Shown piece by piece: positions 43,776 to 56,305 of a stretch of DNA of 64,000 nucleotides. Below the pieces are notes generated by a model. It worked only from the letters and a program-made list of their open reading frames with translations. It did not search any database and was not told the origin of the DNA. This DNA is from Chryseobacterium limigenitum (GTDB lineage Bacteria; Bacteroidota; Bacteroidia; Flavobacteriales; Weeksellaceae), in the NCBI RefSeq assembly GCF_900114875.1, contig NZ_FPKW01000013.1:1-64000 (forward strand), given 5' to 3'. Numbering within the stretch: the stretch's first letter is position 1; every line of letters begins with the position of its first letter. A program made the position numbers and the translations under genes.

Positions 43776-44021
43776 ATGAACGAATTATTAATTTTAGGGG
43801 TCATTCTTATTGTAGTTTTAGGATTTTTTAATAGAGATTGGATCAAAAACAGGTTCTTTCCCGAAAAACACAGAAACTATACGATTGATGATGAATTTAA
43901 TTCCAATAAACGCGACAGGGAAAAAGAAATTGACCACCTTTTAAGCAAAATGGGCAAAAACGGAGTCAATGATCTGTCTGCTAAAGACAGAAAAAGATTA
44001 GACGAATTGTCTAGAAAGTAA
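43776..44021 (+). CDS. Small membrane-anchored protein (DUF6576-like)
   Basis: 81 residues. One N-terminal helix (LLILGVILIVVLGFF), then a charged tail ending IDHLLSKMGKNGVNDLSAKDRKRLDELS, a motif also seen at the C-terminus of some Bacteroidota rhomboid proteins. Function unknown. Confidence 0.65.
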   Translation: MNELLILGVILIVVLGFFNRDWIKNRFFPEKHRNYTIDDEFNSNKRDREKEIDHLLSKMGKNGVNDLSAKDRKRLDELSRK

Positions 44022-52212: not shown

Positions 52213-53493
52213 TTAAATCCCGAAAGAAGCTTTAATTTCGTCTACTTTGTCAAGTTTTTCCCAGGTAAAGAATTCCAGCCCTGTAAGCGTTAATTCGTTC
52301 TTGTGACCTTTATTGAAAGTTTTATCAGCTACATAATGCTCTCTTCCCATGTGACCGTAAGAAGCTGTATCCTGATAAATTGGATTTCTTAATTTTAAGT
52401 TTTGCTCGATTGCATAAGGTCTAAGATCGAAAATTGTAGACACTTTTTTAGCAATTTCACCGTCGTGAAGATCAACTTTTGAAGTTCCGTAAGTGTTGAT
52501 ATATAAACCGCAAGGTTCAGCAACACCAATTGCATAAGAAACCTGTACCAAAACTTCATCAGCAACACCTGCAGCTACTAAGTTTTTAGCAATGTGTCTT
52601 GTAGCATAAGCAGCACTTCTGTCTACTTTTGAAGGATCTTTTCCAGAGAATGCACCACCACCGTGAGCACCTTTTCCACCGTAGGTATCAACGATAATCT
52701 TTCTTCCTGTAAGACCTGTATCACCGTGAGGGCCTCCGATTACGAATTTCCCTGTCGGGTTGATGTGATATTTGATCTGATCATTAAATAATGCCTTAAT
52801 TTCCTCAGTTTGTAAAGCTACAACTCTGGGAATTAAAATATTTTTGATGTCTTCACGAATTTTGTTCAGCATTTCTTCTTCAGCAGCAAAATCATCGTGC
52901 TGAGTAGAAACTACGATAGAATCAATTCTTACCGGTTTATGATCATCAGAATATTCGATGGTAACCTGGCTTTTTGCATCAGGACGAAGATATTTAATCT
53001 CAGAATCTTCTCTTCTGATCGCAGAAAGTTCTTTAAGAATAGTGTGTGCAAGATCTAAAGCCAAAGGCATATAGTTTGCCGTTTCGTTCGTTGCATAACC
53101 AAACATCATCCCTTGGTCACCTGCACCCTGGGCGTTTGCTTTAGCTTCGAAAGATTCGTCATTTACAGCTCTGTCAACACCTTGGTTGATATCCGGAGAC
53201 TGCTCGTGAATCGCAGAAATAACTCCACAAGAATCACCATTAAACATGTATTCTCCTTTTGTATATCCGATTCCGTTGATAACTTCTCTTGCAATAGTCT
53301 GTACATCTAAATAAGCATCAGACTTCACCTCACCTGCCAAAACTACCTGTCCTGTTGTAACAAGAGTTTCACAAGCTACTTTCGAGCTTTTATCGTATGC
53401 TAAAAAATGATCGATTAATGCATCAGAGATCTGATCGGCAATTTTATCTGGATGCCCTTCTGAAACTGATTCAGATGTAAATAAATAAGACAT
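52213..53493 (-). CDS. metK: S-adenosylmethionine synthetase
   Basis: 426 residues. [20 protein letters not shown] at the start, [14 protein letters not shown] and the P-loop-like [18 protein letters not shown] are all conserved. It makes SAM from methionine and ATP; the length reflects the Bacteroidota form. Regulated, very likely, by the SAM-II-like aptamer in its leader. Confidence 0.98.
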
Positions 53494-53574
53494 ATTATTC
53501 TATTTGTTTTTTTAGATTAAAAATATACGAAGAAAAATATGAATAAATTGCCAGAAAAGCTCAAAATAGAAATA

Positions 53575-53625
53575 CTGTTTTAGCTTTTTTTTATAGAGGT
53601 TGCAATCAGGTCAAATTTTTCCTCG
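53575..53625 (-). ncRNA. Candidate SAM-II riboswitch in the metK leader
   Basis: On the minus strand the RNA reads GAGG (53624-53621), then AAAAAUUUGACCUGAUUGCAA, then CCUC (53599-53596), then a U/A-rich linker and GCUAAAACAG (ending 53575). GAGG/CCUC is a P1 stem, AUUUGACC..AUUGCAA matches the SAM-II L1 core (AUUUAACC..AUUGCAA), and GCUAAAA is the conserved 3' strand; CUG of the loop can pair with CAG for the pseudoknot. A promoter lies just upstream and metK downstream. Confidence 0.72.
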
Positions 53626-53638
53626 TTCGTAAACAGTG

Positions 53639-53670
53639 CAAATTTAAGTACTATTTTTTTAATACTCAAA
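53639..53670 (-). promoter_or_regulatory. Promoter of metK
   Basis: Minus strand TTTG (53670-53667), 20 bases, TAAATTTG (53646-53639). Predicted start near 53633, about 10 bases before the riboswitch, giving a leader of about 140 bases. Confidence 0.6.
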
Positions 53671-53734
53671 ACTTTTGTTTACTAATTATAATTTTCTTTA
53701 AATTAATGATTTATCAATCTTTAAGAAAAATAAA

Positions 53735-54685
53735 CTATTGTGGTTTTATACTTACGAATTCTTTTGGACTTTCGTTGTAGTTTAATTTTTCCTTTAATGA
53801 TAATCGGATAGAATTCGATAATTCATCAATAATTTTTTGTTTGAAAGTAGGCTTATAATAAATAATACTTATCTCTCTGAAAGGGAAAGGCTTTTTAAAT
53901 CTAAACACATTTCCTTTTTGTTCTTCAGAAAGCTGACTTAAAGCTAATTCAGGCAAAATACTGATTCCTCCCACTTTATCCACCATATGCACCAAAGTCT
54001 GAATATTAGAAGCCAAGAAATCTAAATTCTTAGGTTTCAAAGTATTCTCTTTTAAATGACAGATATTTTCAAATTGGTTTCTTAAACAGTTTCCTTCCTC
54101 AAGCAACCAAACTTTTTCAACATTAAGATCTTCCGGAACAACGTAAGAATTTTTCTTATTAGCTTCAGTGTTTGAGCTGTAGATCATTAATTCTTCATTA
54201 AACAGGAAGTCCTGATAAAACTCGTCAGCGGTATCATAAGGTGTTGAAATAATTCCAGCGTCCAGTTCTCCGGCTTTTAAAGCTTTAATGATATTATCTG
54301 TCGTCATTTCTTTTACATTCATCTGAATTTTCGGGTTCTCTTCCAGGAATGCAAAAATTTCAGTTGGTAAAATGAATGAAGAAACAGTAGGAATAATACC
54401 TAGATTAATTGTTCCTCCTAAAATATTATTTAAAAGGTTCGCTTTATTCTTTAATTCATTGACAGATTCTATAATCACCTTCGCCTGATCAATAATCTGT
54501 AACCCGACATCCGTTGTACGAATCGGGTGTGTCGTTCTGTCGAAAACCTTTACATCCAGCTCATCTTCAAATTTCTGTATCATTGCACTCAATGTAGGCT
54601 GTGTAATGAAGCAGGCTTGAGCTGCTTTACCAAAGTGTTTATACTTATCTACGGCGATAAGATATTCCAATTGCTGAATGTTCAT
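53735..54685 (-). CDS. oxyR: OxyR-type LysR regulator of peroxide response
   Basis: 316 residues. N-terminal winged helix (MNIQQLEYLIAVDKYKHFGKAA), then the effector domain with C200 and C209 in GNCLRNQFENIC, the spacing of the redox cysteines of OxyR (C199/C208 in E. coli). It faces the catalase gene across a 132-base promoter region, the classic arrangement. Confidence 0.9.
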   Translation of the reverse strand: MNIQQLEYLIAVDKYKHFGKAAQACFITQPTLSAMIQKFEDELDVKVFDRTTHPIRTTDVGLQIIDQAKVIIESVNELKNKANLLNNILGGTINLGIIPTVSSFILPTEIFAFLEENPKIQMNVKEMTTDNIIKALKAGELDAGIISTPYDTADEFYQDFLFNEELMIYSSNTEANKKNSYVVPEDLNVEKVWLLEEGNCLRNQFENICHLKENTLKPKNLDFLASNIQTLVHMVDKVGGISILPELALSQLSEEQKGNVFRFKKPFPFREISIIYYKPTFKQKIIDELSNSIRLSLKEKLNYNESPKEFVSIKPQ

Positions 54686-54705
54686 CTGATTAATATTATC
54701 TATTA

Positions 54706-54755
54706 CAAAGATATGATGTTTTTGTTATTAGCAATCAAAATTTCAAGTAATTTTG
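54706..54755. promoter_or_regulatory. Divergent promoters of oxyR and the catalase gene
   Basis: Minus strand: TTG (54734-54732), 18 bases, TATCTTTG (54713-54706) for oxyR. Plus strand: TTTG (54721-54724), 23 bases, TAATTTTG (54748-54755) for catalase. The elements interleave, so binding here could control both. Confidence 0.5.
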
Positions 54756-54817
54756 ATAATTACTACCTTTACATATTGGTATATAAATAGTAAATCAATC
54801 ATTCAAATCATAACTAT

Positions 54818-56305
54818 ATGGATTCTAAAAAATTAACATTAAGTAGCGGTGCCCCATATTATGAGCATCAGGATTCCCAAACTGTTGGTCCAAGAGGTCC
54901 AGTATTGTTACAGGATTTTATACTTCAGGAAAACCTTGCTCATTTTGTAAGAGAAAGAATTCCTGAAAGAATTGTTCATGCAAAAGGTACAGGAGCTTAT
55001 GGAAAACTGACCATAACACACGATATTAGTAAATATACGAAAGCGAAATTATTCTCAAAGGTTGGGAATTCGTGCAAAATGTTTGCCCGCTTCTCTACTG
55101 TAGGCGGCGAAAAAGGAAGCGCAGATACGGCAAGAGACCCAAGAGGATTTGCTTTAAAATTTTACACAGAAGACGGAAATTGGGATTTAGTTGGAAACAA
55201 CACGCCTGTATTCTTTATTAAGGATGCTAAAAAGTTCCCGGATTTCATTCATACTCAAAAAAGAGTTCCAAAAACAAACTTAAAAAGCGCCACCATGATG
55301 TGGGACTTCTGGAGCTTAAATCCGGAATCGCTTCACCAGGTTTTAATATTAATGTCAGACAGAGGAACTCCTCACGGATTCAGACATATGCACGGTTTCG
55401 GATCTCACACTTTTTCAATGATCAATGCCAACAACGAAAGAGTTTGGGTGAAATTCCATTTTAAAACAAAACAGGGCGTTAAAAACTTCACGAATGAAGA
55501 TGCCGTAAAAATGGCAGGAGAAAATCCGGATTTTGCACAGGAAGATCTTTGCAACGCGATCGATAACGGAGATTTCCCGAAATGGACAATGTACATCCAG
55601 GTAATGACAGAAGATCAGGCAAGAGATTTCAGATGGAATCCTTTTGATATTACTAAAGTCTGGTTTCAGGGAGATTTTCCATTAATTGAAGTCGGAGAAA
55701 TGGAATTGAATGAAATTCCTGTTAATTATTTCGCTCACGTAGAACAATCTACTTTCTCACCAAGCAATTTGATTGATGGAATAAGCTTTTCTCCGGACAA
55801 AATGCTTCAGGGAAGATTATTTTCTTATCCCGATGCTCACAGATACAGAGTTGGAGTAAATGCTCACCAGCTAGAAGTAAACCGTTGTCCGTTTGCTGTT
55901 AATAATTATCAGAGAGATGGTTTTATGGCGGATTCAAGCCTGTATCAGGACAAACCCAATTATCACCCTAACAGTTTTGATGATATTACGGCAGATTCAG
56001 CCTATAAAAACTTCGAATATGAACTAGACAACAATCACGTTGCCAGCTATAACCGAAACGAAAATGATGATGATCATTACACTCAGCCAGGCTTATTATA
56101 TACAAAAGCAATGAATTCGGAAGACAGAGAAAATCTGGTTCACAACATTGTTGAAAGTATGAAAGGAATTGATGGCCCCAAGAGAGATGAAATTATAAAC
56201 AGACAACTGTGTCATTTTTTTAGAGCAAACATAGAACTTGGCATGAAAGTGGCTTCGCAACTACATGTTAACATTGATGCAAATATGATGAATCATTCCA
56301 AATAA
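54818..56305 (+). CDS. katA: Monofunctional haem catalase
   Basis: 495 residues. Distal His H54 in ERIVHAKGTGAYG, catalase core FARFSTVGGEKGSADTARD and proximal haem Tyr in RLFSYPDAHRYR. The length fits small-subunit (clade 3) catalases. Decomposes hydrogen peroxide; regulation by the divergent OxyR is expected. Confidence 0.96.
   Translation: MDSKKLTLSSGAPYYEHQDSQTVGPRGPVLLQDFILQENLAHFVRERIPERIVHAKGTGAYGKLTITHDISKYTKAKLFSKVGNSCKMFARFSTVGGEKGSADTARDPRGFALKFYTEDGNWDLVGNNTPVFFIKDAKKFPDFIHTQKRVPKTNLKSATMMWDFWSLNPESLHQVLILMSDRGTPHGFRHMHGFGSHTFSMINANNERVWVKFHFKTKQGVKNFTNEDAVKMAGENPDFAQEDLCNAIDNGDFPKWTMYIQVMTEDQARDFRWNPFDITKVWFQGDFPLIEVGEMELNEIPVNYFAHVEQSTFSPSNLIDGISFSPDKMLQGRLFSYPDAHRYRVGVNAHQLEVNRCPFAVNNYQRDGFMADSSLYQDKPNYHPNSFDDITADSAYKNFEYELDNNHVASYNRNENDDDHYTQPGLLYTKAMNSEDRENLVHNIVESMKGIDGPKRDEIINRQLCHFFRANIELGMKVASQLHVNIDANMMNHSK

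Follow-up and report, generated by a model that had tools for sequence, protein, structure and literature searches.

A SAM-II (long loop) aptamer ahead of metK in Chryseobacterium limigenitum and a putative leader switch between an anti-aptamer hairpin and start-region masking

In the 64,000-nucleotide stretch of Chryseobacterium limigenitum DNA analyzed here (the window), the gene for S-adenosylmethionine synthetase, metK, is preceded by a SAM-II (long loop) aptamer. We think it probable that this riboswitch turns down metK translation when SAM is plentiful, by way of a leader that alternates between an anti-aptamer hairpin and a helix that masks the start region. The aptamer itself is known and typical of its published family. 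What seems to be a new variant is the expression platform: searches of open-licence papers gave no account of a platform for RF01726 that combines an anti-aptamer with the start codon, although the additional files of PMC2864571 may contain one.

A cmscan of the 64-kb window against 4227 Rfam families at gathering thresholds matched only one family, RF01726 (SAM-II long loop), on the minus strand, with 66.4 bits against a cut-off of 44, an E-value of 1.3e-10 and the full model (1-60) covered (Table 1). Genome-wide this is the only RF01726 match above the cut-off, the five others scoring 19.6-28.8 bits. A first-pass annotation of this DNA had proposed a SAM-II aptamer from the order and spacing of its elements, and every element that it described is found in the sequence: AUUUGACC...GAUUGCAA lies between GAGG (53624-53621) and CCUC (53599-53596), and the CUG/CAG pseudoknot with the GCUAAAACAG strand is present. 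The Infernal search with Rfam models that the annotation had suggested as a check returned a SAM-II match both in this leader and in the leaders of relatives. Its class assignment stands as far as the SAM-II aptamer is concerned, but the form is the 'long loop' of Bacteroidetes, RF01726, and not the alphaproteobacterial RF00521; the latter had no match in the genome, a result of little weight as the control genomes gave none either. From membership in the family we infer that the metK leader binds SAM, and with RF01726 upstream of a gene that Pfam identifies as metK, the feedback loop on SAM synthetase that the annotation envisaged would be a logical one.

Table 1. Positions of the features discussed in the text (window coordinates unless a contig is named)
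Feature	Position	Strand	Basis
-33 promoter element TTTG	53667..53670	-	sequence; Bacteroidetes consensus TTTG/TAnnTTTG (PMC7366714); conserved in genus alignment
-7 promoter element TAAATTTG	53639..53646	-	sequence; 20 nt after TTTG
SAM-II (long loop) aptamer, RF01726	53570..53630	-	cmscan
P1 5' strand GAGG, pairs with 53596-53599	53621..53624	-	cmscan alignment; compensatory GUGG/CCAC in relatives
CUG, pseudoknot partner of CAG 53575-53577	53607..53609	-	sequence; relatives' loci
P1 3' strand CCUC	53596..53599	-	cmscan alignment; relatives' loci
GCUAAAACAG, strand carrying pseudoknot CAG	53584-53575	-	sequence
CAG, pseudoknot 3' strand	53575..53577	-	sequence; relatives' loci
Predicted anti-aptamer strand 3 UUUUgAGCUUUU, pairs with AAAAGCUAAAA 53578-53588 (hairpin of the first-pass annotation)	53555..53566	-	fold, 0.84-0.92
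Predicted anti-aptamer strand 2 GCAAUU, pairs with GAUUGC 53602-53607	53546..53551	-	fold, 0.99
Predicted anti-aptamer strand 1 AUUUUUCUUCGU, pairs with ACGAGGAAAAAU 53615-53626 (contains P1 5' strand), 12 bp	53527..53538	-	fold, mean pair probability 0.98; z -5.2
Masking strand CAUAUUuUUCU, predicted to partner the AUG region once SAM occupies the aptamer, otherwise within the anti-aptamer hairpin	53531..53541	-	fold, 0.84-0.85; group tests
Translation initiation region AGAAUAAUAUG, rich in A; by eye it has no Shine-Dalgarno	53491..53501	-	sequence, fold; A-rich rule (PMC7366714)
metK, S-adenosylmethionine synthetase	52213..53493	-	three Pfam SAM-synthetase domains above cut-off
SAM-I copies (L293-L295)	C43:48481-48587; C17:312824-312931; C17:184875-184971 (own genome G000)		RF00162

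A minus-strand gap of 241 nt separates metK from a LysR-family gene (53735-54685, minus strand), and within it TTTG-N20-TAAATTTG, the aptamer, a leader of ~80 nt and the metK AUG follow one another in that order. The MetK protein is 79-81% identical to the best named records listed, which are Chryseobacterium-like and other Flavobacteriales, with nearer records possibly absent. Directly upstream of the metK leader, the LysR-family regulator and a catalase gene stand divergently (53735-56305; Pfam), an arrangement resembling an oxyR-katA pair.

The metK leader promoter agrees with the Bacteroidetes consensus TTTG/TAnnTTTG (PMC7366714), and both of its parts are conserved. The pattern TTG-N17-23-TAnn(n)TTTG occurs no more than 70 nt 5' of P1 in 74/77 loci of the genus, 59/78 of the family and 11/41 at the level of order or class, compared with 0/77 and 1/74 in shuffled controls for the genus and family, and TAnn(n)TTTG is found within 45 nt 5' of GAGG in all 77 genus leaders and all 74 family leaders examined. 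These results support the placement of the promoter that the first-pass annotation had proposed, and transcription is predicted to start a few bases 3' of TAAATTTG, just ahead of P1. A start downstream of 53620, which that annotation had named as evidence against its reading, is unlikely because the promoter is kept 5' of P1 in relatives.

RF01726 scored above the cut-off in all 98 genomes of the genus sample (this one included), in 185 of the 197 genomes of the family sample (the genus again included; 29/33 genera) and in 57 of 395 genomes across the phylum, where 62 matched at E<=1e-5. At all 41 order/class loci checked, out of 53 such matches, the next gene is metK. For comparing the elements of the aptamer we parsed 196 of 201 loci (77 genus, 78 family, 41 order/class; L101, L103, L115, L172 and L199 remained unparsed). 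P1 is GAGG/CCUC in 184 of the 196 and GUGG/CCAC in 12, L138 among them, and judging from these sequences the helix is preserved in distant relatives through compensatory change. For the pseudoknot, at a fixed offset, all three CUG/CAG positions are able to pair in 77/77 genus, 71/78 family and 31/41 order/class loci, so that three pairs are possible in 179/196 (171 with CUG/CAG itself) while 17/196 keep two or fewer, and in a few loci of distant relatives the strands have changed yet still pair (UGG/CCA, GGG/CCU). Loss of either set of pairs among relatives, which the annotation had said would speak against a SAM-II aptamer, is thus not what we found. Many order-level aptamers have linker insertions between CCUC and AUGCUAAA, some of them hairpin-like (L127-L146, L071, L073, L086 and others), and some class-level aptamers have insertions between GAUUUG and GAUUGC together with a GUGG/CCAC P1.

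Four genera of the family (g6, g8, g16 and g17) had no RF01726 match; g17 lacked it in 9/9 genomes, and g6, g8 and g16 are represented by single genomes. Among seven RF01726-less genomes searched, metK was present in six (four of g17, one of g16, one of g8), and their metK loci gave no RF01726 match at E<=1. Since metK is there and the aptamer is not, the riboswitch has been lost or was never gained in g17, g16 and g8, in a pattern of clade-wise loss or replacement.

Each of the three aptamer strands has a complement in the part of the leader 3' of the aptamer; this part engages them in mirror order and is predicted to form with them an anti-aptamer hairpin of 100 nt (53626-53527). For the stretch 53631-53525 the folding energy is -27.0 kcal/mol (z -5.2), and none of 200 shuffles was as stable. 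The first-pass annotation had noticed a hairpin at about 53554-53587 in which the GCUAAAA strand finds an alternative partner. Such a helix is predicted (53588-53578 with 53566-53555), but it is the innermost helix and only the tip of the ~100-nt hairpin, and the GCUAAAA strand is engaged together with the 5' strand of P1 and the GAUUGC core. The idea that aptamer and downstream hairpin are mutually exclusive gains from this, as the predicted fold occupies the aptamer strands.

When the aptamer was kept and the leader alone was dinucleotide-shuffled, the natural leader was the more stable (p<=0.05) in 75/77 genus, 54/77 family and 29/41 order/class loci (L205 was dropped for N runs from this and the switch tests, leaving a family n of 77). 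For the C. limigenitum leader the values were -27.0 versus -13.8 kcal/mol (z -5.3, 0/100 shuffles). Because members of a genus are related, the firmer test takes 23 genera of the family, each represented by a single genome. Over these 23 the mean number of anti-aptamer pairs was 28.8, compared with 14.9 (sd 1.7) in shuffles, and 0/100 shuffles reached it. The aptamer also interacts better with its own leader than with swapped ones, by 3.21 kcal/mol (permutation P 2e-5, 0/100 shuffles), and in 23/23 genera the aptamer-leader duplex is more stable than the one with the reversed leader. Leaders are therefore complementary to their aptamers beyond chance over 23 genera. RNAalifold on 36 of the 74 distinct genus leaders returned a P1-side hairpin only and showed neither covariation nor the anti-aptamer. 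Leaders that are A/U-rich and gappy are hard to align, and for this reason we used alignment-free swap tests.

The anti-aptamer hairpin could instead be a mere stability element or low-complexity A/U pairing, with the aptamer a vestige. The region is indeed A/U-rich, and reversed leaders retain some composition signal against the aptamer (a smaller one, P 0.0075, over the 23 genera), but shuffles that preserve dinucleotides keep the composition and fail to reproduce the anti-aptamer. A vestige is also hard to reconcile with an aptamer above the cut-off in every genome of the genus sample and with a compensatory form of P1 in distant relatives, and we consider this explanation highly improbable.

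We modelled the SAM-bound state by forbidding aptamer pairs, with the pseudoknot left out. With the aptamer barred from pairing in this way, the leader strand CAUAUUuUUCU (53541-53531) is predicted to pair with AGAAuAAUAUG (53501-53491), the start codon included. Bacteroidetes mRNAs have no Shine-Dalgarno (SD) sequence and favor A at -3, -6 and -11 to -15 (PMC7366714), and the start region here, AAACAAAUAGAAUAAUAUG, follows this rule at -3 and -6 and over most of the stretch from -11 to -15. By analogy, a strand that pairs with the A-rich region and the AUG can be seen as the natural counterpart of SD masking. The annotation had argued that the 80 bases between the aptamer and the ATG speak against simple masking of the ribosome site; the argument does not hold up, given a leader strand whose predicted partner, with the aptamer occupied, is the AUG region, and which is matched to that region over 23 genera.

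As for the aptamer, the leader interacts better with its own start region than with swapped ones, here by 2.17 kcal/mol over the 23 genera (P 2e-5, 0/100 shuffles), compared with P 0.35 for sequence upstream of the promoter and P 0.999 for coding sequence, so each of the two leader pairings is better with the partner from its own genome than with a swapped or shuffled one. The masking partners differ from genus to genus with complementarity kept: AGUUCCUUUU/AAAAGGAAUU in g9, UGUGUGUUUU/AAAACACACA in g5, UUUCUUGU/ACAAGAAA in g12 and UAGUUUCUUUUGU/ACAAAAGAAAUUA in g18. A masking helix of at least 6 bp is by itself about as common in shuffles (19/23 genera versus 17.1), but one with half or more of its strand inside the ON hairpin is found in 16/23 genera versus 7.6 in shuffles (maximum 13 in 100), and this coupled geometry with the start region unpaired in the ON state in 12/23 versus 3.0 (maximum 7). 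The masking helix was not seen in g10, g23 and g28, it has just 5 bp in g33, and in g21, g24 and g31 most of the masking strand falls outside the ON hairpin. In 75/77 genus and 62/77 family leaders, blocking the aptamer makes the start region less open than it is in the free fold. Individually (p<=0.05, 40 shuffles each), the switch reaches significance in 38/77 genus and 26/77 family leaders, and closure alone in 21/77 and 9/77. Reversed leaders also gave a smaller signal with the start region (P 0.004), and the leader beats its own reverse there in only 13/23 genera; as reversed leaders are nominally significant against both start region and aptamer, part of the signal is composition. As a group over the 23 genera, leaders are complementary to their start regions beyond chance.

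The C. limigenitum leader by itself is not individually significant for masking: its free-minus-blocked opening was reached by 3/40 shuffles and its closure by 16/40, and in a separate run its switch was reached by 4/20. This is what one might expect if no specific masking helix were involved and the SAM-bound aptamer, or simply a long leader, altered the loading of the ribosome or of S1 at a distance, as a steric or standby-site effect. Action at such a distance has a precedent in S. meliloti metA, where an SD within the SAM-II riboswitch serves to control translation that begins at an AUG 74 nt downstream (PMC9373788). We regard such an effect as quite unlikely here, as it would not account for leader strands and start regions being matched genus by genus, above the level of swapped and shuffled partners, nor for the coupling of this match to the anti-aptamer. 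The genome-by-genome matching and the coupled geometry over 23 genera together point to masking at a distance as the mechanism that these models support best.

The switch that we propose would work as follows. Transcription would start just before P1, and the 60-nt aptamer, made first, would sample SAM. Without SAM, the ~40 nt that follow would invade the aptamer to give the 100-nt anti-aptamer hairpin, which would hold the masking strand and leave the start region, A-rich and SD-less, accessible (ON). With SAM bound, the aptamer would retain its own strands, and the freed leader strand (53541-53531) would pair with the AUG region at 53501-53491 (OFF). The binding of SAM, the co-transcriptional order and the block of initiation by pairing are the steps on which this model would depend. 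In MFE folds of growing transcripts, P1 is kept until the 3' end reaches 53535 and the anti-aptamer appears from 53530, so 35-40 nt would be transcribed after the aptamer, during which SAM could decide the outcome. Given how much more stable the anti-aptamer is than P1, such a switch would need to be under kinetic control.

Control could also be transcriptional, with a SAM-dependent structure stopping RNA polymerase in the leader, either intrinsically or through Rho, as has been proposed for many proteobacterial SAM-II riboswitches, which are predicted mostly ahead of terminators (PMC2258182, PMC1273637). The leader is U-rich 3' of the anti-aptamer hairpin, but a scan that demands 3 G-C pairs, and to which Rho-dependent stops are invisible, found no terminator-like site in 53400-53800. 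Moreover, an anti-aptamer hairpin acting as a terminator would shut metK off at low SAM, the wrong sign for feedback, and the matching of leader and start region in 23 genera is unexpected under transcriptional control. We consider transcriptional control unlikely and prefer the anti-aptamer/start-masking switch.

PMC2864571 lists SAM-II long loops (RF01726) among riboswitches, from Bacteroidetes and from marine samples, and what our leader shares with the published family is the sequence and structure of the aptamer. Rfam models a 60-nt aptamer for RF01726, and the anti-aptamer and masking leader falls outside the model. With canonical SAM-II (RF00521; PMC1273637) it has in common P1 and the pseudoknot, a promoter a few bases before P1 and an association with methionine/SAM genes. 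For SAM-II, PMC1273637, PMC2258182 and PMC6061858 describe platforms of two kinds, a terminator or an SD close to the pseudoknot, whereas the metK leader has no terminator-like site in the scanned region and no SD by eye. S. meliloti metA resembles it as a SAM-II that acts on translation starting ~75-80 nt downstream but requires an SD inside the riboswitch (PMC9373788), while the metK start site is SD-less and its AUG is the predicted partner of a separate strand. SAM-V, from marine alphaproteobacteria and Bacteroidetes, has a SAM-II-like pseudoknot aptamer and is a proposed translational OFF switch (PMC6061858), but it is proposed to mask an SD abutting the aptamer, unlike the masking by a leader strand suggested here.

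Among the weak RF01726 matches in this genome, the best (28.8 bits, ~54 nt, at 1501-1554 on the minus strand of locus L002) was considered as a second riboswitch candidate and rejected as conserved protein sequence because it lies inside a coding sequence, by eye that of ffh. Weak matches of ~54 nt recur in many genomes of the genus and, judging from the copy in this genome, are likely a recurrent false positive. At the loci of the other four below-cut-off matches (19.6-21.9 bits; one at 43808-43868 of the window), cmscan gave no SAM-II at E<=1. Elsewhere in the genome, a Flavo-1 RNA (RF01705) lies at 1529-1616 on the minus strand of locus L004 (G000:C13), its 42 bits equal to the gathering score of that family.

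The genome also has three SAM-I (RF00162) matches above the cut-off, at 63-82 bits. By eye, from the translations, the genes near these copies include a homoserine acetyltransferase-like (metX-type) gene followed by another gene, and two TonB-receptor-like genes. At least one SAM-I is present in each of 60/60 genus genomes, this one included, and all 60 are among the 98 with SAM-II. The text of a 2007 survey says that no species was found with both SAM-I and SAM-II (PMC2258182); contrary to that statement, this genus carries the two together.

On a broader view, to which we give about even chances, the metK SAM-II of Flavobacteriales, with their A-rich, non-SD start sites, has evolved a dedicated three-strand platform in which a full-length anti-aptamer forms and a freed strand pairs with the start-codon region; platform and start region would co-evolve in each genus, in cells that also have SAM-I on other genes. 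The masking model would explain why the aptamer is placed 80 nt from the start codon. We found little in the literature on the workings of riboswitches in a phylum that lacks Shine-Dalgarno sequences, and the metK leader offers a concrete, testable model at the level of nucleotides that is common to many genera. Since it carries both SAM-I and SAM-II, the genus also lends itself naturally to studying why two sensors of SAM are used in the same cell.
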